Assembly: GCA_037043015.1 (NCBI GenBank)
Contig: CM073331.1
Coordinates: forward strand, 5,901,305 to 5,965,304
Source: Bryum argenteum
Taxonomy: Eukaryota; Streptophyta; Bryopsida; Bryales; Bryaceae
Reading direction: 5' to 3'
Length of the DNA stretch: 64,000 bases
The notes under the pieces are model-generated. The model searched no databases. It was not told the DNA's origin and worked only from the letters and a program-made list of their open reading frames with translations. Within the stretch, counting starts at the first letter, position 1. Every line of letters begins with the position of its first letter. The position numbers and the translations under genes were made by a program. Below are positions 313 to 63,983 of this stretch, piece by piece.

Positions 313-2398
313 ATGGCTAGCATGGAGTCTTACCTTCGCGATGCAACGGGGAGCATGGAGGCTATAAATGAGATGTTTCCTTTCCTAAAATTTAACATTA
401 AGCAATGCACCTATTTAGGTGACAAATTTGGTGTGGTCATTGATAGCGCAAGGTTGTTCTTGGAGAAATCAAGAAATAAAGAGGTCGTCGGAACTACTTC
501 AAGAGAAGACAACCCCGATTTTGTTAAGACCTTCGAGGTGCTAGTGGTATTGGGAAAGCAAATTGAGAGCTTTGTCGAAGGTTGCTGCGAAACAAAATGG
601 ATCCAAGCTGCAATGGTGTTAACAAACATGTCGGAGTATGTTTCATCTCTAGGTTTCAGTCTGTATCTGTGCAAGGTCGCGTTTAAGAAGGATAAGGCGG
701 CTTTCGAGTGCCATACAATGGATGAAGTTGATGGCATGAAGAAATGTGATGCAGAGGGTGTAAAATCGGAAGCATCTATGGATGCCGAGGACCTGATTGA
801 GAAAGTGACACTGGCAGTGAATGAATTACAAGGTGAGGATCGAGATTTAGCCACTTATCTACTTCAAAGACTTTTGGAGATTAAGCGTACTCCAAGCTCT
901 GGAAGTGGAACCTATTTGAGCCATTTGTTTGCTTGGCTAAAGTCTGGAAAGCAAGTAGGAAGAGGTGCTTCAGCCACTGTGTACGAGGCGATGTGGCTTG
1001 GAACACGAGTTGCAAGGAAGACATTTGAAGGACCTGAGAACGTGGAGTTTGACAAGGAAGTTAAGACCTTAGCACGATTATGTCATCCTAATATCACATC
1101 CATGTTTTGTTGTACAAAAAACAAGCGAAATTGTTCCATCATCATGGAGCTGATGGATGGAAATCTCTGTCAACTAATTAATGAAAGGTGGGGCGATGAT
1201 GGCGAGTGGCGTCCATTTTCCATAGTGGAAGCAGTGAACATAATGCTTCAAATAGGTGAAGGAGTGAATTATCTCCACAATGAAGGCATTGTGCACCGTG
1301 ACTTGAAGTCTGGGAACATTCTCTACAAGAGCGTAAAGGTGAAGAATGTTGCAACTGAGTATGTTCATGTCAAAGTGGCTGACTTTGGAATTTCCAAGGA
1401 AATGGAGACGAATTCCACATATTCAGACCTAACTTGCAATACTGGAACCAACAGGTGGATGCCACCTGAAGTCATTAGATTGTTGGACGGAAATCAAGAA
1501 GTCTTGTGTTCGAGTACTGTTCGGTTGCCAAAATATCCATTCAAGCTTGACACTTACAGTTTTGGACTCGTGTGCTACGAGATCCTCAGTGGCAACCTAC
1601 CTTTTTGGGAATACGAGAATGCGATGGAGGTAAAGAGGAGGATATTGAAAAAGGAGCGTCCAAGATTACCAAGTGAATGCCCTCTTATATTGAAGGCTTT
1701 GATTGAGAAATGTTGGAGTCATGAGCCCGAATTGCGACTAACGTTCGGCGTTATCTGTAGGGAGCTGACGTATATAAAATACTTGTTAATGACAGGTAAT
1801 GATAAACAAACACAAGGCAAAAGTTATTGTTGATGTTGCAGCCTTCAATGTCCATAAGTTGCCATGTGTTATTTCAATATGAATGAAATTCTTGACACAC
1901 GAGTGTGAATTTGTAACAGGTAGATCAGTGAACCAACACGTGGATGATAGTCGAATGCGAGAGAATATTGCTGACAGCAAAGATATGTCGGGAGCGGGGC
2001 TATACTGTCTAGACATGGCAGGAAGTTCGTTCTACACGGCGCCGGAGAAGCAATGCAAGGGAGTTCAATCCCCGCGCATTTCCAAGGACTTCAAGTACAG
2101 GGGAGTGCTCTATCGGGGTGGTCACGAAGGTCAGAGAAGATGGGTGGCAAAGATGCGGGTGCTGAACAGAACGGTGTGGCTTGGCAATTTCACGTCCGAA
2201 TATGAAACTGCTCGAGCGAGGGACATCGCGAGCTTTTACCTCAAGAACTCTTTTAAGTTTTCTGACACTCCCAAGCTCCTAAAGGGACTTCCATCGTTGA
2301 AGGGTTTGGAAGGAGAAGAGAAGTTCGAAGCTGTCCGGAACCTCATCAGCCGGGTGGTATTCATGGCACCGCACCCCTCCACCATCCCACCCTCCTGA
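313..2398 (+). CDS. HeLo-like/TKL kinase fused to AP2/ERF domain, copy 1 (tail lost)
   Basis: Exons are 313-1795 and 1920-2398, predicting 653 aa. Residues about 1-130 are helical and resemble the plant MLKL/DUF1221 (HeLo-like) N-terminus. The kinase spans about 213-490: glycine loop GRGASATVYEA (about 217-227), lysine in VARKTF, HRDLKSGN (about 328-335), DFG (357-359) and PPE, so it looks catalytically complete and TKL-like. The 124-nt GT-AG intron is phase 1 and joins Gly495 in frame to an AP2 domain (about 552-613: YRGVLYRG, WVAKMR, WLGNF, ETARARDIA). An in-frame TGA stops the protein just before the donor near 2413, where copies 2 and 3 have a serine codon; copy 2 splices there to an acidic exon. 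Retaining intron 1 gives a 506-aa kinase-only protein. The fusion is seen directly; signalling to DNA is inference. Confidence 0.8.
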
Positions 2399-2615
2399 CC
2401 AATCCCCACTGCAGTAAGTGCCCAACGCAATTATATGTCTCCCTTTCTTACGGTACGCCCTCCCGTCATTAGTGGTTATATCATGCTCAAACCATTTGTT
2501 GAAACGCTTTTGAGACAGTATTGTAATTAGTTTTTGCATTAGTGTTTCAGCATGGCACTAGCGTTTTGAAAGAGATGGTTCAAACATTTGATAGTGTTTC
2601 AACAAATCTTTTTCA

Positions 2616-2874
2616 TTAACCCATAAAGGAGAGAAGAAGCTTGAATCTGGTTGATTTGTTTTAAATAGATGCCCTATTTGTACAAAAGTTCGACTTCATT
2701 TATCTCAGGATTCGTACGGCAAAATTTGACATAAATTAGTGGATAGATTAATTAGACATATATAGACAAGATCTCACGGTTGAAATTTCTAAATTTGAAT
2801 TTAAATAATTTGTTCATAGCTTCCAGACAAGTCTGTCTGGTTAGTCGTTGTAGAGCTTCTCTTTCAGGGGTTAA
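2616..2874. mobile_element. TTAA-bounded MITE, piggyBac-like, in the former intron 2 of copy 1
   Basis: The element starts TTAACCCATAAAGGAGAG and ends CTTCTCTTTCAGGGGTTAA, giving imperfect terminal inverted repeats inside TTAA. Orthologous copies sit in the same intron of gene copies 2 (14551-14814) and 3 (from 20786), so it inserted before the duplications. An independent relative is at 45109-45362. It is about 259 bp and has no coding capacity. Confidence 0.6.
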
Positions 2875-3055
2875 TGATTCATGGTGCCACTGCTATTTGA
2901 TATAGATAGGTCAAACAAATCGCAGTCTTGAGATATCAATAGGGCTGTGTTTTAACCACAATTCTGCACTAGTATGCATGGTTTTGCATCAGTATGCGAT
3001 GTGTTGGGCAAGCAACTCACTTCTAAATTATTGGTGTTGCCAGTGTCCCTTGCAG

Positions 3056-3175
3056 GAAACTACGGCATCTCCCGGGTTTTCTCGATCAGATTCTAGAGAA
3101 AGTGACAAAATCTGCAAAAGCGCAGTGGACGGTACCCGGGACTAAATGTTCGACGATTTCAATGACGAGATAATC
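3056..3175 (+). pseudogene. Decayed third (acidic-tail) exon of kinase-AP2 copy 1
   Basis: After a recognisable acceptor (TTGCAG) the sequence matches the start of exon 3 of copy 2 (TASPGFSRSDS), then reaches an in-frame TAA at 3143-3145. Past about 3175 the rest of the exon is missing and the sequence runs into the copia fossil, as if a deletion of several hundred bases removed the remainder relative to copy 2. Because copy 1 already stops in exon 2, this segment can only be 3' UTR. Confidence 0.7.
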
Positions 3176-3480
3176 TCCTCGAGTGGTACTCGAAACCAGG
3201 CTCGCCGAAGTACCACGAAGATACTCAAAAATGCCTTTCAGAGTTGTAAGGTGAATCTCACACGGATTACTTGAGTACTGAGGAACCGTCGAGGTGGCAT
3301 ATGAGATATCACGCGGGGTAATTGTACATAGATACAATAGGCTACCAACAACTTCTTGATAAGGAAAATTGATGATTTAGTATCATGCACAAGGGGCCTG
3401 TGAATTTTACCTGAACGTTCACAAGTCAAAACAAATCACTATTAGTTTAGTTTGTCATCTATGAGAAAAAGGTCAAGCAA
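3170..3480 (-). mobile_element. Ty1/copia fossil, reverse transcriptase/RNase H part
   Basis: Minus-strand translation recalls the copia polymerase region between the reverse transcriptase and RNase H (ITPRDISYATS, SSNPCEIH, LKGIFEYLRGT). It is a short, broken, old fragment with no LTRs visible. The related fragment near 15560-16350 lies at the equivalent place downstream of gene copy 2, so the insertion predates the tandem duplication. Confidence 0.7.
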
Positions 3481-11765: not shown

Positions 11766-11930
11766 TTAGGTTTATTGACCCATGTGAATTTCCCTTGGAG
11801 TTTGCGTTGTTTGATTCATGTTTTAGACTTTGTGGTGTGGTGTGAAAGGTGGTTTTAGAGCAATTCTAAGGAGAGTTAGTTGTGTGGCGTTTAAGGAATT
11901 GAAGTTTGTCTGCATTTGGGAGATAACAAA

Positions 11931-12240
11931 GATTGTGTCGTGTGATTGGTGGCTTTGGGAATTTTAATACATGCGCTCTGTAGGATATATATTTATTTGA
12001 TTGTCTTGTGATTTTTTCAATGTGTGCAGAATGTACTCTAACTATGTTCAGGAAGTAGAGCTTGAGATAGATATCATATTTTGCATGTGAAGATCAACCA
12101 TACTATTCATGTGATGATCACGGGTGTTACACAGAAGCCTTGTGCCCTTGTATATAGAGTGTTGCATGAGCTCTGTTGATAAGTTCAACGAGTCGGAGGT
12201 TTGGAAGCGGAAATAAGTTCCCTTCAGCGGTATTGCAGTC
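11931..12240 (+). promoter_or_regulatory. 5' flank and leader of kinase-AP2 copy 2
   Basis: Homologous to 1-312 with scattered substitutions and a few small indels. Both copies kept the region directly before the ATG, so both may be expressed from similar promoters. No individual motif is assigned. Confidence 0.6.
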
Positions 12241-15200
12241 ATGGCTAGTATGGAGTCTTACCTTCGCGATGCAGCGGGGAGCATGGAGGCTATACATGAG
12301 ATGTTTCCTTCCCTAAAATTTAACATTAAACAATGCACCTATTTAGGTGACAAATTTGGTGTGGTTATTGATAGCGCAAGGTTGTTCTTGGAGGAATCAA
12401 GAAATAAAGATGTCATTGGAACTACTTCAAGAGAAGACAACACTGATTTTGTCAAGACCTTCGAACTGGTGGTGGTTTTGGGAAAGCAGATTGAGAGCTT
12501 TGTGGAAGGTTGTTGCAAAACAAAATGGATCCAAGCTGCAATGGTGTTCACGAACATGTCGGAGTATGTTTCATTGCTAGGTTTCAATCTCAATCTTTGC
12601 AAGGTCGCGTTTCAGAAGGATAAGGCGGCTTTCAAGTGCCATACTATGGATGAGGTTGATGGCATGAAGAAATGTGACGTAGAGGGTGTAAAAGCGGAAG
12701 CATCTACGGATACCGAGGACCTGATCGAGAAAGTGACACTGGCACTGAATGTGTTACAAGGTGAGGATCGTGATTTAGCCACTTATCTACTTCAAAGACT
12801 TTTGGAGATTAAGCGTACTCCAAGCTCTGGAAGTGGAACCTATTTGAGCGACTTGTTTGCTTGGCTGAAGTCTGGAAAGCAAGTGGGAAGAGGTGCTTCA
12901 GCCACTGTGTACGAGGCGATGTGGCTTGGAACTCGGGTTGCAAAGAAGACATTTGAAGGATCTGAGAACGTGGAGTTTGAGAAGGAAGTTAAGACCTTAG
13001 CACGATTATGTCATCCCAATATCACATCCATGTTTTGTTGTACAAAAAACAAGCGAAATTGTTCTATCATCATGGAGCTGATGGATGGAGATCTCTGTCA
13101 ACTAATCAATAAAAGGTGGGGCGATAATGATGGCAACTGGCGTCCATTTCCCATAGTAGAAGCAGTGAACATAATGCTTCAAATAGGTGAAGGAGTGAAT
13201 TATCTCCACAATGAAGGCATTGTGCACCGTGACTTGAAGTCTGGGAACATTCTCTACAAGAGCGTAAAGGTGAAGAATGTTGCAACTGAGTATGTTCATG
13301 TCAAAGTGGCTGACTTTGGAATTTCCAAGGAAAGGGATACGAATACCACATATACAGACCTAACTTGCAATACTGGAACCAACAGGTGGATGCCTCCTGA
13401 AGTCATTAGATTGTTGGACGGAAATCAAGAAGTCTTGTGTTCGAGTACTGTTCGGTTGCCAAAATATCCATTCAAGCTTGACACTTACAGTTTTGGACTC
13501 GTGTGCTACGAGATCCTCAGTGGCAACCTACCTTTTTGGGAATACGAGAATGCGATTGAGGTAAAGAGGAGGATATTGAAAAAGGAGCGTCCAAGATTAC
13601 CAAGTGAATGCCCTCTTATGTTGAAGGCTTTGATTGAGAAATGTTGGAGTCATGAGCCTGAATTGCGACCAACGTTCGGCGTGATCTGTAGGGAGCTGAC
13701 GTATATAAAATACTTGTTAATGACAGGTAACGATAACCAAACATAAGGCAGAGTTATTGTTGATGTTGCAGCCTTCAATGTCCATAAGTTGCCATGTGCT
13801 GCTTCAATATGATTGAAGTTTTTGACACACGAGTGTGAATTTGTAACAGGTGGATTGATGAACCATCATATGGATGATAGTCGAACGCGAGAGAATATTG
13901 CTGACAGCGACGTCGCAATAAGTGAAAAGGGCAGCACGAGCTTGGTTGGGGCTGGGGCTAAGAGCTGGGGCAAAGATAGGGCGGGAGCGGGGCTGCCCTT
14001 TCTGGACATAGCAGGAAGTCCGTTCTACACGGCGCCAGGAGTTCATTCCCTGCGCACGTTCAAGTACAGGGGACTGCGATATCGGAGTGATCACGGTAGG
14101 TGGATAGCACAGGCGCGGCTGCCGGGTATGAAGAACAAGACGTTTTTTGGCGAGTACAAGTCCGACTATGAAGCTGCTCGCGCGATCGACGTCGTGTACT
14201 TCTTCTACGGCAAGGTCCCTTTAAACTTTCCTGACACTCCCGAGCTCCTGAAAGAACTTCCCTCTTTGGAGGGTTTGGAAGGAGAAAAGAAGCTCAGTGC
14301 TGTCAAGCGCCTCGTCAAGCGGATGGCAATTGAAGCACCGCATCCCTCCACTAACCACCTTCCTCACCAATCGACAAGTGCTGCAGTAAGTGACCAACGC
14401 AATTATCTGTCTCCCTTCCTATGGTCCTCTCGTCATCAGGGTTGAACCATTTGTTGAAACGCTTCGGAGACAGTATTGTAATTGGTTTTTGCATTAGTGT
14501 TTCATTAGTTTCAGCATGGCATTTGACAGTGTTTTAACTAATCTCTTTTATTAACCCCTTGAGGGGAGAGAAGCCTGAATCTGGTTGATCTGCTTCAAAT
14601 AGATGCCTTATTTTTACAAAACTAAAAGTTCGGCTCAATTTATCTTAGGATTCGTACAGCAAAATTTGATAAAAATTGGTGGATAGATTAAGTAAACATT
14701 TCTAGACAAGAACTTACGGTTGGAATTTCTAAATGCGAATTCAAATAATTTGTTCACAGATTTCAGACAAGGCTGTCTGTCGGGTCGTTGAAGAGCTTCT
14801 CCTTCAGGGGTTAATGATTCATGGTGCCACTGCTCCTTGATATAGATAGATTAAAAAACTGCCAGTCTTGAGATATCAATAGGGCTGTGTTTTAACCACA
14901 GTTCTGCACTAGTATGCATGGTTTTGCACTAGTATGCGATGTGTTGAGCAAGCAACTCACTTTTGAAATACTGGTGTTGTCAGTGGTCATTGCAGGAAAG
15001 TACGGCATCTCCAGGGTTTTCTCGATCAGATTCTGGAGGAAGTGACACAATCTACGAAAGCGCATTGGACAGTCTCTCCGACTACATGTTCGACAATCTC
15101 ATTGCCGAGGCACACTCCTTCGAGTTGGACCAAGTGGACGACGACCAGTCTGAGGAGAGGACACATTCCGTAGAACTTCTAGACTACTTGACGACAACCG

Positions 15201-15253
15201 AGACTCACAGCGTACCAAGTGATGTGTTTGTCACGAGTGATGTGTTTGTGTAA
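12241..15253 (+). CDS. HeLo-like/TKL kinase fused to AP2/ERF domain, copy 2 (complete)
   Basis: Three exons, 12241-13726, 13850-14385 and 14996-15253, give 759 aa with all junctions in frame. The N-terminal 130 residues resemble the plant MLKL/DUF1221 helical domain. The kinase (about 213-490) keeps the glycine loop, VAKKTF lysine, HRDLKSGN and VADFG. Exon 2 adds an AP2/ERF domain at about 566-625 (YRGLRYRS, WIAQARL, FGEYKS, EAARAIDV, LNFPDT). Exon 3 is Ser/Asp/Glu-rich (ESTASPGFSRSDS; ELDQVDDDQSEE), like an activation or degradation tail. Intron 1 is 123 nt; its retention leads at once to a stop and a 501-aa kinase. Intron 2 (610 nt, donor GTAAGT) holds a MITE. This is the intact reference for copy 1. 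Kinase and AP2 calls are firm; the HeLo-like call is moderate. Confidence 0.85.
14551..14814. mobile_element. TTAA-bounded MITE in intron 2 of copy 2
   Basis: Starts TTAACCCCTTGAGGGGAGAG and ends GCTTCTCCTTCAGGGGTTAA. It is the best-preserved of the intron-borne copies and shares its interior (GGATTCGTACAGCAAAATTT) with 2616-2874, the relic at 20786-21030 and 45109-45362. Confidence 0.65.
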
Positions 15254-15559: not shown

Positions 15560-16350
15560 TTGCAATCAAGTCTAATCAGGAGTGAGTGCCGTGGTAAAAA
15601 TATCAGCGAGTTGGTGGTGTGTATTGATATACACGATAGAAATTTCTCCCGTCTGCTGAAGCTCACGAATCTTGTGACAAGCAACATCATCGATGTGCTT
15701 AGTTCTTTCATGGAATTCCGGATTTAAAATAATGAAATTGCTGCCCGATTGTTCGAATGGAGGTAAGTAGGTGATCGGAGAAAATTGATATCAGAAAGAA
15801 CGTGCCTATTGAACTTCTCGTCTTGCAACGTACTCGCTCTCGGTAGTTGATGTGGCAACACATTTTTGTTTGCGACTTAGCGAGGTGATTAAACCACTAT
15901 TGAGCAAGATACAAGCTCCCAATCTAGACTTTCAATCATTGAGGTCTCGAGTGTAATCGGAATCCGCATAAGCAACAAGAATGTTGTTAGAACCAGGCTT
16001 GCCGTATCCAGCATAGCAAATAGAAAAATCTGAAGTACCAGGAAGATACTTAAAAATGCGTTTCAGAGCTGTAAAGTGAATCTCCCACGGGTTGCTTGAG
16101 AATTGAGAAACCTTCGAGATGGAACATGAGATATCAGTGCGAGTAATTGTGCATAGATACAGTAGGCTCCAAACAACTTCTTGATAAGGAAAATTGATGG
16201 ATTTAGTATCATGCACAACGGGCATGTGAATTTTACTTGAAGGTTCACAAGTCAAAACAGATCACGATCACTATCAGTTTCTCATCCATGAAGGAAACTT
16301 CAAGCATCATCTTAAAAGACATGACACTTGTAATGAAATTGAATCTACTA
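15560..16350 (-). mobile_element. Ty1/copia fossil, reverse transcriptase to RNase H part
   Basis: Minus-strand translations recall copia polymerase (ITRTDISC, LKRIFKYLPGTSDFSI, and ATSTTESEYVA typical of the RNase H end). It is a broken fragment without recognisable LTRs. The distal part and its right flank match 3170-3480 plus 3765-3930, so one ancestral insertion was duplicated together with the host gene. Confidence 0.7.
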
Positions 16351-20324: not shown

Positions 20325-22281
20325 CTACCTGGCAGTATCGAAATCTGAAAAAAGTGAAAAATCGCTTTCAGGTGCACATGTATCGACCCAATCATCCATG
20401 ATGTCGAAATTTTGTTGAGGTGAAAGAGATAGATCATCAAATATCCCGATGTCAAAATGTGTCCTCTCCTCGTACTGGTCGTCGTTCACTTGATTCAACT
20501 CGGCAATGAGATCGTCGAGCATGTGGCCGGGGATACCGCCCACTGCGCTTGCGCTTTCGTCGCTTGTGTCACTTTCTCTAGAATCTGATCGATAAAACCC
20601 TGGAGATGCCGTACTTTCCTGCAAGGGACACCGGCAACACCAATAATTCAAAAGTGAGTTGCTTGTCCAACACATCGCATACTCATGCAAAACCATGCAT
20701 ACTAGTGCAGACACAGCCCTATTGATATCTCAAGACTGTCAGTTGTTAAATTATCTATATCAAGTAGTAGTGGCACCATGAATCATTAACCTCGAAGGGG
20801 AAGCTCTACAGTGACCCGCCAGACAGCCTTGTCTGAAATCTGTGAACAAATTATTTTTGAATTGGAATTTGGAAAATTCAACCGTAAGATCTTCTCTATA
20901 AATGACTAATCAGTCTATCATCGATTTAATCAAATTTTGCTGTACGGATCCTAAGATAAATTGAGTCAAAGTTTTAGTTTTCGTAAAAACAGGGCATCTA
21001 TTTAAAGCAAATCGGCCAGATTCAGGCAGATTCAGGCCAAATTTGTTGAAACAGTGTCTTGAAACGTTTGAACCTTCTCTTCCAAAACACTAGTGCCATG
21101 CTGAAACTCTAATTTTGCAAAAACTTATTACAATACTGTCTCCGAAGCGTTTCAACAAATGGTATAACCATGATAATTATAACCATGATATAACCACTAA
21201 TGACGAGGACCACAAGAAAGGGAGACAGATGATTGCGTGGGACACTTACTGCAGTGGGGATTGGTGAGGGTGGGTTGGTGGAGGGGTGCGGTGCTTTGGT
21301 TGCCATCCGCTTGGCGAGGTCCTTGACAGCTTTGAGCTTCTCTTCTCCTTCCAAGCTCTCCAAAGAGGGAAGTTCCTTCAGGAGATCGGGAGTGTAAGAA
21401 AAGTTAAAAGAGTCCTTGCCGTAGTAGAAGTACGCGACGTCGATCGCGCGAGCAGCTTCGTATGCGGACTTGTAGTCGCCAAAAGACACCTTGTTCCTTT
21501 TGTTCATGACCTCTTTCGGCAGCCGCGTCTCTGCCACCCACACACCACCCCCCCGATCATCCCGATATCGAAGTCCCCTGTACTTGGACCTGGACTCTGG
21601 CTCAGGCACCACCTGACCGAACGTACCATACCGACCTTTTCGCTTCAACTCGGCACTAGGGCGTCTTCGTTGCAAAGTATCGACAATATCGAGTTGCACA
21701 TGCCAGACCACGGCAGTTGGCACTCTACGACCCCCCCAGATGATTCCGGGACTAACGTCGTCCTCTTTGATCAGGTACTGAAAAAACAACTCGGTCCATG
21801 AGTCACACTCCTCGTTCTTGCTCTCAAACCCATGGAGAGAGTGCATAGCAGTCGCACCGATGTGGTACCCCAAGTCCGGCACCGCTGAGTTGCAGACCTC
21901 GAGAGTGCTCAATCGAAAGGAATGGCTAACGATTGAGTTACTGTTGTTCGGTAACGGCACTTCTTCCAAGAGATATTGATCTGGCGTTGGACAATCTCTG
22001 CCACTACTGCTCATTCCTAGAAGATGCTGGTACACGTCCCCTGGACGTCGACTCTCATCGTCTGGTTGCCAGTCGAGCTTTTCCTGCGTGGTCGACCATG
22101 CAGGATACGTATGTAAGAGCTCATTGATCACTTCCTCGTCCTGCGAGATCACCGCGGCGCACACAAACACTCTCTGGACTATATACCGGTTCGGTGCAAA
22201 GTTTGCACTCCTGATGTGCTCATTCACTTTAGGAAGCAGAGTCTTGCGGATATTTTCACCGTCGATGCGGTTGGCAGCCAT
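20325..22281 (-). CDS. AP2/ERF protein with novel N-terminus, third member of the cluster
   Basis: Two minus-strand exons, 21250-22281 and 20325-20618, predict 441 aa. The start at 22281 sits in ACCATGG, a strong context. Residues 1-230 (NRYIVQRVFVCAAV, EEVINELLHTYPAWS, GIIWGGRRVPTAVVWH) match no family I know and contain no kinase motif. Residues about 233-297 are an AP2 domain (KYRGLRYR, WVAETRL, FGDYKS, EAARAIDVAYF), and the second exon is an acidic tail closely related to that of copy 2 (TASPGFYRSDS; FDDLSLSPQQNFDIMDDW). The 631-nt intron is homologous to intron 2 of the kinase genes. Unlike them, N-terminus and AP2 share one exon. Probably a nuclear transcription factor; the N-terminal role is unknown. 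Confidence 0.8.
20786..21030. mobile_element. Relic of the intronic TTAA MITE in the third gene
   Basis: TTAACCTCGAAGGGGAAGCTC at 20786 and the interior (GTACGGATCCTAAGATAAATT) match the MITE of 2616-2874 and 14551-14814 in inverted orientation. The far end is eroded. It shows that all three AP2 introns descend from one. Confidence 0.6.
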
Positions 22282-25461: not shown

Positions 25462-25830
25462 AATAGATAGATAGATAGATAGAAACTCCGGTGCCTTTCT
25501 AAGGGGCCGGCGTGAATGAAGTGTCCGTTTGTAATGCTAATATCCCGATGGCCACCAGACAAGGGGAAATTGGAACAATACTACTTCCCCCTCTCGAGGG
25601 TGGACACTATAACTACGCTAGTTTCTAGCCTAGTTACTAATGCCTTGAAGATACTTGACATAGTATCCCCCCAAAGGGCTTTGAGGTACCCATACAACAA
25701 GGTCCAAAGACCCCCCCACAATAGTTGGGTGGACTATAGTGGTGAGCACCACGCCGGCATGGGGAATAGAACCCACGACTTCCTCATTGGGGGCCTAAGC
25801 CCTAACCACCAAGCCAAGGTTTGTGGTGCC
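25462..25830 (-). mobile_element. tRNA-derived SINE, full copy (minus)
   Basis: Read on the minus strand, the element begins GGCACCACAAACC, has a pol III A box (TGGCTTGGTGG) and about 43 nt further a B box (GGTTCTATTCC), and ends in a (CTAT)n tail seen here as GATA repeats. It is nearly identical to 47500-47864 in the opposite orientation. Frames reading through it are not genes. Confidence 0.75.
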
Positions 25831-27534
25831 TAAATATGCAGAAGAGCTTAACATGTATAAAGTCGTTACCTATATCATAATGTTTTATATAAATACAAAT
25901 TCAATAGGTATTCTCTTGGTAAACCTTACTATATTGACTTTGTATATATTACATGGATTTAAGTACTTCTTAAAAGCAGTGATAACACTTGGATCATGCA
26001 CCATCATATGATAGCCTCGTTTGATGATTACTAGTAATAATAGGTCGAATCTTTATTAATTTATCTTTATTACCCCTTGTGAAATTCATAAAGACATTTA
26101 TCAAATTATTACAAAATTTTAAGTAAACCTTTTGATACAGATTGAAACTAGTAGGTTACAGTGATCTTTGTTATGTTCAACTTTCTAGATATTTTTCATC
26201 TTAACTACTATGCGTATTCCATATAAAATTTAAACCACTTCTAATATTATCACAATTGCATTTTCTAGTTATGCATCAGCAAAGCTACCATAACGCACTT
26301 CTTAAAGTTGCAAAGATTGCTGCAACAAAAAAATGAAACATAAACTTTGATCCTTGTTGTAAAGTGCTTCATGACATAGGAATTTGTTATGAGCAATATG
26401 GCTTAAGAGTTTGTTGCAGGACCACATGACAAAAGAATTTGTTGTATAACCACATAGTGTAAAAATTGGCTGCAACAATCTAGGTCATCTACGCAGACCC
26501 TGCCTCAATCTGCAATTACACTTGTTTTGATAATGTCACTCATTTTGATATTGTTACAATTAAATGTACTTTATAACGACACTAGTAATAATGGCAAAAT
26601 TAGAGAGAACCGCAATAATTGAGTTGGAAATAATGACTCTTAATATTTTAATATAAAAATTATTATATTATCACAAACACATAAAGTCCAAATAAAGATC
26701 TATAAATAATTAATGAGCTAATGGATGTGATGATGATATTGAAGAATTTAGATTCACAAGCTTATTGATCAATTCATAATGTATGATACAAAGTCATGAT
26801 TAGCATCTTTTACTCATGCATAATGGCTATGAATCATATAAAGTGGTCGAATTTAAATGTCTTAATCTAAATAGATGTAAGTAAAATTTTACAAAGGTAA
26901 GTAGATGATATTTGTTTCATGAAATATATGTAGATCACAAGGAGAATTTATCACTTTGAATGTTCTTTCAAAATTTTCATAAAATCGATACACTTTTTTT
27001 AAGAACCCATGAATAGTGCAACGTACCAGTCCTGCTACCAAATTATGTTGTGTAAAAAAACATAGCAAGATACCATGTAAATGTAATCGCAATATACAAG
27101 TTGTTGCGACTTGCTAGTACGATGGATTCACACCATTAAAAAACTGAGAATGTCTTGAATTAATATCCGACTACAAAGTTTGTGGGGAACAAGAAATGTC
27201 GTTGGAAAGTTTTTGCTACAAGTGCGAATGGACCTTTGATTGACTACGAGTATCAAGGAACACGATAATTTTGCAAAATTCACTGCACTTAATTGACTAC
27301 AGTGCACAGATTCTTGGAGAAGAGGGAAGTAGATGAATTGCAATTAATCAACTATATCATTATGAAGATGGTCTTTTATTGGAATGCATTCAAAGTTTCA
27401 CCGTAGCGTGGAATTTTTGGAATCAAGTATCAAATTTTTTTAATTTTGAAATGTGACAACTTGTCATTCCAAAATGATTCAATTACCCAATTGTAATCAT
27501 TGCCTCAATTATTATCTAAATTAGAAATTGATAA
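25831..27534. other. AT-rich intergenic stretch, nothing recognised
   Basis: Only short frames and simple AT-rich sequence are seen. Confidence 0.4.
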
Positions 27535-32829: not shown

Positions 32830-34995
32830 TCAGTTATTGGCATTCTCATTCCTCTCCAAAGCTGCAGAAGAAACGGACAAAAAACGAAACATCAGCGTCT
32901 TTTACCTTCGACACAGCTCACAAGAATTCCAACAGTGTGAAGGACTCGTAAGTAGAAGTCAATAAGGACAATTTAATTTTCTCGTCAACGATATGGTATT
33001 GAATATGTTTCGAAGTTGCCGAACTTCTTAGTCGTACAGAGTGAGTTAGAGAACGGAAAGAGGATGTAGTGCTTAAAGGTGGAGCTTCTTACTGTTGTAA
33101 TTGAGCAGCTTCTCGATGAGATCCACATGGGTCATCAGCATGCGCCGGCAGCAGTAGCGCACCAGACCCAACGCATCCAAAGCATCACTGTCGCATGCAA
33201 AAACGATAGCAGCAATTAAATGGATCGATTCATGTGATAGATTCTATCGTCTTCCATTGATATGTTGAAAGATTAAGTATCTGGAGGTAAAGAAACCAGC
33301 TTATGTGATTCACCTCCTGCTTTCTTCGAAGAACAAGATCAATATGAATGGAATAGAACCAGGATACGATAAATGAAGCAGGATCCGTCAAGTTCTTACC
33401 CCTCCGAGTAATCAGCCTGCAAAAGGTCGAGATACGTATCCCATTTGTTCCCGATCACCTGCACAAACAACTTCCTTAAGCCCTATGCCGAAACCCGAAC
33501 CTCAAGCCTGCCTTATTCCGATTCTGGTGATCGTGATCAATATGATCTCAAACTGCAATGATCCTTCCAGAAACATGTTCTTAATGAGCTAAATTTACAG
33601 CAAGCAATTCACAATGTGTCCGCAATGGCGCCAAAACCCTAATTCTCAAGCTTTTCTCGAGCCAGTTACCGGGACCTGTTCCAATTGGTGCACTTATATT
33701 TCTAAACGTGCAACCTTCTTCAAGGATTCTTCAAGACACATCTCTTTGATGAGCTACAATCACAACGAGCAATTCACGGTTTTTGAGCGATGGCGCCAAA
33801 GCCCTAATTCTCAAATTTTGCTTCATCCGACTCAGGTAATCGTTATCAATAGATGCACTTGTAATTTGAAAGTGCATCATCCCACCATCTCTTTGATGAG
33901 CTAAAATTACTACAAGCAATTCAGGGTGTGTGCGCAAAACCCTAATTCTCAAGCTTTTCGCAGGACCTGTTCTAGTGATCTTGATCAATAGATGCACTTA
34001 TAATTCTAAACTGCAACCTCACCCAAATGATCTTTCAAGAAATATATCTTCCGAATATTACAGCGAGCAATTCAGAGTGCGTGCGCAATTGTGCCGAAAC
34101 CCTTATTCTCGAGTTTTCCTTTCAACCGATTATGACCAGGACCTGCTTGATCGTGATCAATAGATGCACTAACAATTCACTACTGCGACCTCACCCGAAT
34201 GATCCTTCAAGATACACCTTTACGATGAGCTAAAATCACAACAAGCAATTCGAGGTGTGTGCGTAAAACCCTAAGTCTCAAGCTTTTCGCAGGACCTGTT
34301 CTAGTGATCTTGATCAATAGATGCACTTATAATTCTAAACTGCAACCTCACCCAAATGATCTTTCAAGAAATATATCTTCCGAATATTACAGCGAGCAAT
34401 TCAGAGTGCGTGCGCAATTGTGCCGAAACCCTTATTCTCGAGTTTTCCTTTCAACCGATTATGACCAGGACCTGCTTGATCGTGATCAATAGATGCACTA
34501 ACAATTCACTACTGCGACCTCACCCGAATGATCCTTCAAGATACACCTTTACGATGAGCTAAAATCACAACAAGCAATTCGAGGTGTGTGCGTAAAACCC
34601 TAAGTCTCAAGCTTTTCTTGAACCAATTACCGGGACCTGTCCTAGTGATCGTGATTGCACTTATAATTCTATACTGCAGCCTCACTCGAATGGTCCTTCA
34701 CGAGACATTCATTTTAATTATTACAGCAAGCAATTTAGAGTCTGTTTGCAACTATGCTACACAAAACGCCAGCACACAGCTCGTCTTCGTTGGAAACCTG
34801 TGAACGACCACCTTCAAAACTACTTCAAATTCACACAAAAGATTTGCTAATCCAATTACGAATAGAACTATCACTTAGACATCAAACCGAAGCGATTGCA
34901 ATCCAGAGAATAATTCCTAAGAGCGGCGACTCTAATGTTCAAGAGGTAGGAGTAAAAACCTTGCCGCAGGTGAAGCAGCGAACAGGAATAATCAT
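32830..34995 (-). CDS. NRPB10: RNA polymerases I/II/III subunit RPABC5
   Basis: Four minus-strand exons, 34960-34995, 33400-33458, 33093-33187 and 32830-32861, encode 73 aa. The protein is typical RPB10: [12 protein letters not shown] with the first zinc pair, [40 protein letters not shown] with the second pair, and [19 protein letters not shown]. It is a small zinc-binding subunit shared by all nuclear RNA polymerases and anchors the RPB3/RPB11 subassembly. Without the last intron the frame would end KKLHL after NYNS; the 32-nt final exon restores the conserved NTLE ending, so I prefer the spliced form. Intron 1 (1501 nt) carries a striking repeat array. The gene is head-to-head with TAF7, 287 bp between start codons. 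Confidence 0.92.
33600..34760. repeat. Higher-order tandem array with telo-boxes in NRPB10 intron 1
   Basis: About eight units of roughly 150-170 bp, each marked by a GCAATTC motif (33604, 33766, 33913, 34064, 34236, 34393, 34565, 34727), alternate in type. A two-unit block recurs with a 329-bp period and looks virtually identical between 33930-34258 and 34259-34587. Most units contain AAACCCTAA or a near match and GTGATCAATAGATGCA. Open frames inside repeat with the same period and are not genes. Confidence 0.85.
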
Positions 34996-37246: not shown

Positions 37247-39682
37247 TTACACAACTCCGACATTCCGCATGACAAGCACTTTAGTTTCAAGCATGTCCTC
37301 CATGGCGTACTTGACGCCCTCACGCTGGATCCCTGAGTCTTTGAGACCTCCGTATGGCTGGCTATCAACTCGTAACGCTGGAGAGTCATTGAGAATCACA
37401 CCCCCAACCTGAACATCCAACAATTCTTGTGAGGTACTAGATTGCACAATGGACCAGGTAATGTCCATGCCGAGCTCTGAGGAGTCATTTCTAAAGTCTC
37501 TTAATTCTTATTTCTGTCGGTACTGAAGGCTTTGCAAATTGAACACGAGTCTCTTGGAATGGTTAAGAGCAATATTTGTTCTCACGATAGACTTCTTATA
37601 ATGCAAACAACAAACTATCATTCACATGGGGAACAAAGAGCAGGGGATTGACTGACCTCCATATGTTCAAAAGCGTAAAAGGCTTTATTCAAATCCTTTG
37701 TAAAGAGTCCCGACTGAAGTCCATAATGAGTATTGTTGCACTCCTTCACAGCTTCCTTGAAATCACTGGCGAGACGAAAGAAGAGGCTTCAATATGAGGC
37801 TTCTGACACTTATGACAAATTTTGTAATTGTGAAACGAGAATGTTATCCAGTTAGAGAAGAAGCTCGACTCTCACCTATATTTGTACAAAAGAACAACGG
37901 GGCCGAAAATCTCTTCTTTTCGAGCTTCGGCTTCCATGGGCACATTCTCGAGAATTGTTGGGTGCATGAGTGCACCATTCCGGCTCCCTCCTACAAGGAG
38001 CTTTCCGCCTTTCTCGACTGCTTCTTTCACCCAATCCTCGATGCGTTTCGCTTCCTTCTCAGAAATCATGGGACCGATAAACGTATCCTCCTCGAATGGG
38101 TTTCCCACTTTCAGCTTCTTCACTGCCGCAACGAAAGCCTCCTTGACCTGAACAATGAAGGTCCAAAATGAAGAATGGACTTCTTGATACCCGTGCAGTT
38201 ATGAAAAAAATAGAGACGAAATATCCGATAGACAACTCAAGTCGTACCTCATCGTATAGGCGCTCATGAACATAGAGACGCTGCATGTGGATGCACGATT
38301 GACCACCTTGATAAAACCCGCCATTGATCAACCTGGAAATTGTGTAATCTAAATCTGGAACGTAATCATCCACTATGCATGGCGCATTGCCACCCAACTC
38401 CATGACAACCTGTTTGGAAAGAGAAGGAAGCGTCAGATCGACATGGAAGAAATAAGTGCAACTTTGAAACATACATCGGATCGAACTGCAGAGGCGCACC
38501 TTTTTCTTGCCGGCGCGAGCCTTCATGCCCCACCCTACTGGGCCTGAGCCTGTGAATGTCAGGAGCTTAAAGCGCTCATCCACTGTGAACATGTCAGCAT
38601 CCTCTCTTGACACAGGGAGAACAGAGAATGCACCCTTCGGCAATTCTTCGATACGACTCAAAATGTCTCCCAGAATGAGCGCTGAAATTGGCGTCCTGCT
38701 TGCCGGCTTCAACACGAACGGGCACCCTACTGCTATAGCTGGCGCCACCTTGTGAGCCACAAGGTTGAGTGGAAAGTTCCATGGACTCACCATGGACACA
38801 GGGCCAATCGGAAACTTTCTAACAATCCCCTGCAGGAACCAATCAAAGGCTTAGGATTCTACAATAAATACTAGGAGATCACTGAAGACCTGTCGTGCAG
38901 GCGTGCTAATAAAACATGCGGTACGAAAACACTACCAGCTACAATGATAAAGCGGAGCTAATATTCAGAATTTAGACGAAACGAGGCCGTAGTTGATACC
39001 TGGAGACCCTTGTTACGTGCAGAAATGTCAAGAGGCATGTGCTCGCCATAAATTCGGACACTCTCTTCAGCTGCAACTTGGAATGTGTCGATTGTCCGTG
39101 AGACTTCACCCCGAGCATCTTTGATAGGCTTCCCAGATTCCATTGTCAATGACTGAGCGATTTCCTCAGAACGTTTTTTCAGCTCTGCCACTACCTGATA
39201 CGAGGTAGACGTTTCAGCCCATGATGTGCAAATTCTGCAATTTCTACGCATTCTCACAACTCATTTCGATTGACTGTTACCTTCTCGAGAATCGATTTCC
39301 GTTCGTAAGCGGCCAGGGCCGCCATAGCCGGGGTTGCTGCGACTGCTGCGTCAATTGCTGCATCGACGTCATCGTGTGTGGCGAGCTGAACTTTTGCAGC
39401 TGGAACATATTTAAACACAACGGCATACGTGAAATTCAGCGAAATTGCAAAATCAGTTATTGAACAAAACTTCGATGTAGCACTCGATCTGCACCTACGG
39501 CCAGCTTGTAGTGTTTAGTGACAGAAAGTACACTCACCAACAGCGCCTGTAAACTTGTTGGTGACATCCAAGTACTCGCGGTCTTGTTCTACAGCCTTGC
39601 TCGCAAGGAACATGCGATACTTCAATGGAGAAGACTCGTTTCCAGCCTCCTTCACCTTTTGCAGCACATCGTCAAGCGCCAT
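37247..39682 (-). CDS. ALDH21: Aldehyde dehydrogenase, ALDH21 type
   Basis: Eight minus-strand exons: 39538-39682, 39281-39399, 39000-39194, 38500-38829, 38248-38409, 37876-38147, 37657-37765 and 37247-37408. All are in frame, total 497 aa. ALDH hallmarks are complete: SPWNFP with the oxyanion Asn, FTGSGPVG, catalytic Glu in MELGGNAP, catalytic Cys in [18 protein letters not shown], and a C-terminal [19 protein letters not shown]. Length and the GQSCIH context fit moss ALDH21, a stress-induced family implicated in detoxifying aldehydes such as succinic semialdehyde; NADP-GAPDH (ALDH11) is the nearest alternative. No transit peptide, so probably cytosolic. Upstream sequence to about 41290 may contain leader exons. 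Confidence 0.88.
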
Positions 39683-47067: not shown

Positions 47068-47499
47068 GAAAACACCATTTTTGTCTTTTATTTGACATGA
47101 ACATATGAATATTCTTTGTCATGTTTCTGAAATTGTACAAGGCTCATTTGTATGAGATTGTGGGCATCGATTGAGAATTGCATTTTATGAAAAGAATGTT
47201 TATAATAAGGAAGGTTGTTGTACCTACAAGCTATGAAAATGTATTTCAATTGGATGATAAAACTTCTACTCCATTATCTATGAAGACATCATTTGTTTTA
47301 TGTAACTACATTGCAATTTATTTACTGCTTTGATTTGTGACTTCATCTTAATGGATTATTAAAAAAAAAATCATATTCCAAAGCCATGAAAGTATAGAGG
47401 TTTCTACTTTCCTTTGCTGTAGCCCAGTTGTGTAAAGAGAGGTCCCCCACCGAGGATAAAGTGGATCATTCTTCATGTGCATGAGTTTCAATGGAACGA

Positions 47500-47864
47500 G
47501 GCACCACAAGCCTTGGCTTGGTGGTTAGGGCTTAGGCCCCCAATGAGGAGGTCGTGGGTTCCATTCTCCATGCCAACGTGGTGCTCACCACTATAGTCCA
47601 CCCAACTATTGTGGGGGGTCTTTGGACCTTGTTGTATGGGTACCTCAAAGCCCTTTGGGGGGATACTATGTCAAGTATCTTCAAGGCATTAGTAACTAGG
47701 CTAGAAACTAGCGTAGTTATAGTGTCCACCCTCGAGAGGGGGAAGTAGTATTGTTCCAATTTCCCCTTGTCCAGTGGCCATCGGGATATTAGCATTACGA
47801 ACGGACACTTCATTCACGCCGGCCCCTTAGAAAGGGACCGGAGTTTCTATCTATCTATCTATCT
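47500..47864 (+). mobile_element. tRNA-derived SINE, full copy (plus)
   Basis: Starts GGCACCACAAGCC, has A box TGGCTTGGTGG and B box GGTTCCATTCT, and ends GGAGTTTCTATCTATC with a TATC tail. TCAATGGAA before the head and TCAATAGAA after the tail look like a target-site duplication with one change. Near-identical to 25462-25830, which implies recent activity of the family. Confidence 0.8.
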
Positions 47865-63022: not shown

Positions 63023-63983
63023 TCAATCTATTAAGGTCTTTTGTATATCATTATACAGATCTAATGATGCACGATCATCATATAACATGGCACGTCCAAA
63101 ATGAAACGATGACCGAAACTTGCTAAGGGGACCGTCGAACTCATGGAGCTCTAAGAGATATGGCAAAACCTCATCTAATAAAATAGAATCCTCGTTTGCC
63201 CCATTGTCCTTGTGAGACCAAGATGGTAGTAAAAGAACATTTTCACGCTGATTAAGCACGTGCTTAACCGGATTATCATCTATGATGAGCGTATTAGCCT
63301 CCGTATAAAAACCATCGAAGCTATTGAAGAGATGAGCTGACAAGGTCTTAAGGAAGATAGACTTCTGAGTTCCTGGTTCCTTCATGAACATTGGTCGGCT
63401 CCCACCAGATTTCAAGGGAATCTTGTCACAGTCTTCTTGACCAAGAATTCGTAGGGGCCTTATAGGGTTTATAGGACCAAAGAGAAAATCACAAATAGCT
63501 TCTGTGGTTGTTGTCATCATCGAACTCCAAACCGTGATGGTAGCGAACGATGCCAGCCGAGAGACGAAGTCCTTACAGTTGGGCCTCACCCATTCAAGCT
63601 TCTTCCCCACCTCGGTTGGCAACGTGGCGGAGTGAACACGGAAGTCACGGTTTTTGTATCCTTTAGCTTCCCAAGATGGGGTACAATTGCAGAGGATACC
63701 ATTGAGGTCGAGAACAACATTCAACCAAGTACCGGAGGGTTTCCTTGGAAACCGACCTATGCCTTCTCTAGAATTTAGATCATTGACCGATGCGTCGTTG
63801 ACCTGGATAGAAAACGGCGCACCACGACAAAATTACTAGGGATTTTTCGTCATTGGTTCGATGAATTCAATGACAAAATCATGTAATACAGCCCAACGAG
63901 GCCATGGTTTAGAGCAGAGTGTGTGGATTTGAATATACCTGATTATCATAATTGCTCTCCTCCAAGTCAACTTCGACACCCAT
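63023..63983 (-). CDS. FCP1/NIF-like HAD family protein
   Basis: Minus-strand exons 63939-63983 and 63023-63802 join in phase 0 and give at least 274 aa. The FCP1 homology domain starts with VVLDLNGIL (about 44-52), has TITVWSSM as motif II and TLIIDDNPVKH as the acidic motif IV. The usual second Asp of DxDx(T/V) is Asn here (DLNG), as in a plant branch of NLI-interacting-factor-like HAD proteins, so normal phosphatase activity is doubtful. Clients could be phosphoproteins; none can be named. The ATG at 63983 has no upstream in-frame stop before the window edge, so the true start may lie outside. Confidence 0.75.

Follow-up and report, generated by a model that had tools for sequence, protein, structure and literature searches.

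Does a moss genome encode a single protein in which an MLKL-like kinase is joined to a DNA-binding domain of the AP2/ERF type, and if so, what might such a protein do? The question was raised by the locus 12241-15253 within a stretch of 64,000 nt of Bryum argenteum DNA (the window in the following), where a reading of the sequence alone had described a complete kinase exon, a 123-nt phase-1 GT-AG intron, an AP2 exon and an acidic exon in one frame. Our analysis bears out this layout. The gene, here named copy 2, is located on the plus strand and forms a single open frame of 759 aa plus stop over three exons, interrupted by two GT-AG introns. Exon 1 (12241-13726) comprises an N-terminal region (approximately aa 1-205) and a complete protein kinase domain (approximately aa 210-486), as defined by Pfam, PDB and motif matches. 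Intron 1 (13727-13849; 123 nt, phase 1, GTAACG...AACAG) is followed by exon 2 (13850-14385), which encodes a linker and then a divergent AP2 domain (KYRG at 14062) that has a helix at its C-terminal end, assigned from Pfam, profiles and the predicted fold. Intron 2 (14386-14995; 610 nt, phase 0, GTAAGT...TGCAG) is homologous across all three AP2 copies of the window, and exon 3 (14996-15253) contributes an acidic tail of 85 aa with 20 D/E versus 2 K/R. This gene structure is real, and it is unusual.

A second copy of the unit, copy 1, is found upstream on the same strand (313-3184). Its exon 1 (313-1795) encodes the same N-terminal region and kinase with 92.5% amino acid identity to copy 2 over 494 codons, its intron 1 (1796-1919) is 124 nt long with 113 of 123 aligned bases identical to copy 2, and its AP2 exon (1920-2398) is terminated by an in-frame TGA, such that kinase and AP2 parts read in frame over 653 aa plus stop. 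The TGA lies 15 nt upstream of an intron-2 donor (GT at 2414) that aligns with the donors of copies 2 and 3, and the acidic exon persists only as a broken remnant (3056-3184) with a stop after 29 codons. The sequence-only reading, which saw the same layout at 313-2398, was thus correct for the first two exons but not for the third. At the nucleotide level, the duplicated unit falls into two blocks: 1-1978 aligns with 11928-13908 at 93%, and 1977-3184 aligns with 13970-15125 at 77%; homology between the two copies breaks off near 3184. At or just downstream of the ends of copies 1 and 2, open frames are present on the minus strand (3086-3376 and 15932-16261), which we take to resemble fragments of a Ty1-copia polyprotein; the latter frame has no Pfam match.

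The kinase half of both proteins matches the full Pfam Pkinase domain with E-values of 8.3e-46 (copy 2) and 2.5e-46 (copy 1), and the copy 2 kinase finds its best PDB matches in 6lba (3.9e-37) and 6ka4 (3.3e-36), which head the best 60 of 802 sequences under 1e-10, a ranking rather than a tree. Both structures are Arabidopsis AtMLKLs. The motifs of copy 2 are GRGAS at 216, VAKK at 233-236, HRDLKSGN at 329-336, DFG at 358-360 and PPEV at 385; glycine loop, catalytic Lys (236 in copy 2), HRD and DFG are intact in both kinase copies. Degenerate catalytic motifs as in AtMLKL are absent from the two kinases, whereas the HRD and DFG positions of 6lba read HGD and GFG in the alignment. The assignment to TKL/MLKL-type kinases made from the sequence is supported by the full Pfam domain, the intact motifs and the fact that plant MLKLs are the closest among solved structures. 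In NCBIfam, the kinase exon has 19 kinase-type matches, each of them under its cut-off, while the other two proteins have no match.

The N-terminal region is less clear. It had been labeled HeLo-like, yet neither a HeLo/DUF1221 match in Pfam (E up to 10) or PDB nor any other Pfam match at E up to 10 was obtained with the 205 N-terminal residues of copy 2 alone. What speaks for the label is one alignment of 36 residues to the N-termini of 6ka4 and 6lba, with an equal offset in both. None of 5,000 shuffles for 6ka4 and 21 of 5,000 for 6lba were as good, figures that are optimistic since the fragments had been pre-chosen by alignment with the same query. An AF2 model of N-terminal region and kinase reached a pLDDT of 32.4, too poor to search with. 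Matches to Linocin_M18 (Pfam E 0.17 for the copy 1 N-terminus, PDB E 0.74 for copy 2) were set aside as chance.

The domain in exon 2, read before as AP2/ERF, is AP2-like in fold and profiles but divergent in sequence. Pfam AP2 (PF00847) scores 18.8 bits in copy 2 (E 0.002), 15.4 in copy 1 and 18.6 in copy 3, below the curated cut-off of 33.3 bits, which is a detection threshold and not a biochemical feature; we therefore call the domain AP2-like. Profile matches are WRI1, ERF096, ERF1 and TEM1, AP2/ERF factors with which it shares the AP2 fold and core motif; it differs from them in its divergent sequence below the Pfam cut-off and in being attached, in copies 1 and 2, to a kinase. The predicted fold has the order strand-strand-strand-helix, a three-stranded sheet packed on the helix, with pLDDT block means of 73-84 over residues 81-160 (whole-model mean 56.6). 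Its best structural matches are WRI1 and TEM1, and also ERF1, in the VIA-align list, which is a re-examination of Foldseek matches and from which missing families may still match. The motif YRGLRYR with its three arginines is kept in copies 2 and 3, while copy 1 reads YRGVLYR, the middle Arg, presumably a DNA-contacting residue, being replaced by Leu. Sequence-specific DNA binding of the domain is possible and remains putative.

A third AP2 copy is located on the minus strand (22281-21250 and 20618-20325) and amounts to 441 aa counted from its ATG. Exon 1 (21250-22281) starts with a different N-terminus of approximately 230 aa, which has no Pfam match, and carries the AP2 domain within the same exon; a kinase is absent. 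Exon 2 (20325-20618) encodes an acidic tail of 97 aa (24 D/E versus 4 K/R) homologous to 14996-15253, and the intervening intron (GTAAGT...TTGCAG) is equal in position to intron 2 of the other copies. The alignment of copy 3 to the other two copies sets in no earlier than the AP2 start (2092 in copy 1, 14055 in copy 2 and 21592 in copy 3) and extends into exon 3. Since homology is confined to the AP2 domain and what follows, the AP2-tail block looks like a module on different front halves, a hint that the AP2 part is mobile among genes. Intron-2 identity is near-equal in the three copy pairs (0.861, 0.864 and 0.857) and indicates that the three AP2 modules split at about the same time; either front half, kinase or copy 3 N-terminus, may be the older one. 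Taken as a whole, the locus looks like a small gene cluster with a movable block of AP2 domain, intron 2 and acidic tail on different N-terminal halves.

Kinase and AP2 parts also differ in their substitution patterns. Exon 1 of copies 1 and 2 reveals dS 0.116 and dN 0.034 (dN/dS 0.29), which indicates that the kinase exon is under constraint. For the AP2 part, dN/dS amounts to 1.19 (pair 1-2), 0.89 (pair 1-3) and 0.85 (pair 2-3), and no departure from 1 was detected in these three pairs (Fisher p 0.54, 0.75 and 0.73, respectively); the linker shows 0.94. Positive selection on AP2 was considered and is not claimed, as dN/dS of 0.85-1.19 comes with Fisher p of 0.54-0.75 and dS is raised, too (0.25-0.32). 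Taken over alignment columns, AP2 identity between copies 1 and 2 (0.745) is lower than that of intron 2 (0.861), whereas between copies 2 and 3 it is about the same (0.843 versus 0.857). On these grounds the AP2 part may be under relaxed constraint, may be diversifying or may be a mosaic. Along the kinase exon, synonymous changes between copies 1 and 2 drop from the N-terminal region, with 22 of 129 sites changed (dS 0.199), to the kinase, with 11 of 184 (dS 0.062; p 0.0024), a drop that suggests gene conversion between the copies and makes it a possible process in the kinase half. Differences between the same copies are slightly more frequent in intron 2 (84 of 604) than in promoter plus intron 1 (41 of 431; p 0.034), which would fit a mosaic.

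The reading that we prefer, at a probability of roughly 40%, is that of a kinase fusion protein whose AP2 module changes fast, akin to known plant resistance genes. A constrained kinase (0.29) stands here against an AP2 part at 0.85-1.19, and a modular breakpoint coincides with the AP2 start. In such a protein, splicing of the 123- or 124-nt intron would most likely produce one kinase-AP2 chain from copies 1 and 2. The conserved kinase half would be the signaling part, and the fast-changing AP2 module would serve as an integrated domain binding a sensed target, which may be an AP2-targeting microbial effector or a nuclear partner. Binding of the target to AP2 would alter kinase activity or oligomerization and thereby lead to defence or cell death. 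While the anatomy, the intact kinase motifs, the predicted AP2-type fold, the modular breakpoint and the contrast in constraint can be read from the sequence, we infer that the introns are spliced, that the N-terminus acts in a HeLo-like manner, that AP2 senses a target and that the protein functions in immunity. Against this fusion reading it must be said that dN/dS near 1 is also expected of a functionless domain.

Of the remaining readings, a kinase-controlled transcription factor survives best, although we regard it as rather unlikely. Here, AP2 would bind DNA, the acidic tail would activate, and kinase activity or N-terminal oligomerization would switch the protein on. The predicted AP2-type fold with its matches to WRI1, TEM1 and ERF1 structures and the three YRGLRYR arginines of copies 2 and 3 are in accordance with this, and so is the acidic tail. 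Retained in both of these copies, the tail resembles an activation domain and shows dN 0.337 versus dS 0.667 for this pair (ratio 0.51, p 0.027, in a gappy alignment). On the other hand, no constraint was detected on AP2, copy 1 has lost the tail and exchanged the middle Arg for Leu, and the sole K/R-rich run (at least 5 in 8 residues) falls within the kinase domain. A kinase feeding transcription directly is possible, but a swappable integrated domain fits at least as well, since no constraint was detected on AP2, copy 1 carries the Leu and lacks the tail, and copy 3 has a different N-terminus.

Both readings presuppose one gene, and it is at the kinase-AP2 junction that this has to be decided against two separate genes or transcripts, namely an MLKL-like kinase of approximately 500 aa ending past the donor and a closely packed AP2 gene with its own start. 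The unspliced kinase frames do end in stops at 13744-13746 (copy 2) and 1831-1833 (copy 1), but these are not conserved in place, and from kinase stop to AP2 exon there are about 100 nt in copy 2. In both copies, a TATA-like string, TATATAAAA, closely precedes the AP2 exon (13702-13710 and 1771-1779) and speaks for two genes; it lies, however, within the kinase-exon end and encodes a YIK motif common to 6lba and 6ka4, so that protein constraint can explain it. A TATATAG string also occurs 90 and 116 nt 5' of the kinase ATG (12151 and 197), although the background of such strings is 1.8 per kb on the plus strand of the window. In-frame ATGs precede AP2 in each copy (four in copy 1 and two in copy 2, counted back to the first upstream stop), but none of them share an alignment column, which leaves the kinase ATG as the only shared start seen. 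That copy 3 has its AP2 module in a kinase-less gene is compatible with two genes as well.

As to splicing, 75 GT-AG pairs are possible at the junction, of which 24 would join the two parts in an open frame, and in-frame joining alone is thus weak evidence. Copies 1 and 2 differ in exon 2 by eight indels, six of which are multiples of three (63, 15, 9, 9, 6 and 3), and the other two (1 and 4) keep the frame in their net effect, compared with 3 of 7 multiples of three in the intron-2 control. In the comparisons with copy 3, the AP2 part yields 5 of 5 and 3 of 5, and intron 2 yields 4 of 12 and 5 of 15. With an AT content of 0.62, intron 1 of copy 2 is AT-richer than the adjoining exons 1 (0.57) and 2 (0.46), and the differences between exons 1 of copies 1 and 2 are distributed over codon positions 1, 2 and 3 as 22, 9 and 41. 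From these comparisons we consider it probable that kinase and AP2 belong to one spliced gene, and kinase followed by AP2 as one polypeptide is likely for two copies; the division into two genes appears improbable. Still less credit is given to a functional kinase with a captured and decaying 3' AP2 block that lacks function, for which AP2 dN/dS near 1 in all three pairs, the premature stop and broken exon 3 of copy 1 and a cluster rearranged by duplications would speak, but which is at odds with a frame that survives all eight indels separating copies 1 and 2, with preserved AP2 core residues and fold, and with copies 2 and 3 being fully open with good splice sites.

A bolder picture may also be drawn, which we put forward tentatively. 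An MLKL-like kinase that has kept its motifs, and that may act on membranes via its N-terminal bundle, would carry AP2 plus an activation tail as a cassette that is also found on a different front half, and would act either as a modular sensor-to-gene switch or as an AP2-baited kinase receptor. Among plant resistance genes, those for kinase fusion proteins form a recent class. If the picture is true, a kinase combined with a transcription-factor domain outside NLRs, and with two front halves, would extend the idea of integrated domains, and the cluster would be a simple system for asking whether a captured domain is bait or output.

Among known systems, the combination of kinase and transcription-factor domain has a precedent in an NLR-kinase-WRKY fusion of Arabidopsis, presumably WRKY19. 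As described in the text of PMC4759884, this fusion is an immune-type protein and resembles our predicted proteins in uniting a kinase with the DNA-binding domain of a transcription factor, but it has an NLR, and WRKY in place of AP2; AP2 itself is listed in a table there, among host proteins and domains linked to effectors. The sequence-only reading knew of no described protein combining an MLKL-like kinase with AP2/ERF, and no kinase-AP2 protein was found in the passages of open-access papers covered here; the general idea has its precedent in this fusion (PMC4759884). None of the 15 distinct stretches searched with Pfam, of which two are parts of others, matched NB-ARC. For nonflowering lineages, an enrichment of kinase-NLRs is reported, integrated domains of nonflowering NLRs include transcription factors, and a kinase domain of Physcomitrium patens caused a modest and variable response in Nicotiana, according to PMC11218826.

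Closest in the kinase half is Pm13 of wheat, described in the main text of PMC10951266 as an MLKL-type kinase fusion protein whose kinase is predicted to be functional, while the kinase domains of AtMLKLs are called pseudokinases. Our proteins share with Pm13 a kinase whose catalytic residues are intact and, possibly, an N-terminal bundle in front of it (here weakly supported); Pm13 differs in consisting of an N-terminal MLKL domain and a C-terminal kinase, and AP2 is not mentioned in the main text (PMC10951266). For Sr43 and others, in which a kinase is fused to an unrelated domain, an integrated-decoy model is put forward (PMC10260397). Sr43, Lr9 and Pm4 resemble the predicted Bryum proteins in having an apparently functional kinase plus an unrelated domain as possible integrated decoy, but their fused domains are DUFs, von Willebrand A, C2 and others, AP2 being unmentioned in the main text, and the cloned kinase fusion resistance proteins appear to be unique to the Triticeae (PMC10260397).

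In bacterial and archaeal contigs, no relative was found (24 pattern matches, none confirmed), and ARAGORN and Rfam searches yielded nothing within the 64,000-nt window. Elsewhere in the window, a tandem repeat with a 329-bp unit is located at 33895-34617 (2.2 copies, 98% matches), and an inverted pair of approximately 367 bp with 97% identity (25465-25831 and 47499-47864) is possibly a recent mobile element. Two further open frames on the minus strand match Pfam families, 38062-38850 an aldehyde dehydrogenase (4.4e-44) and 63026-63832 an NLI-interacting-factor-like phosphatase (2.5e-13).
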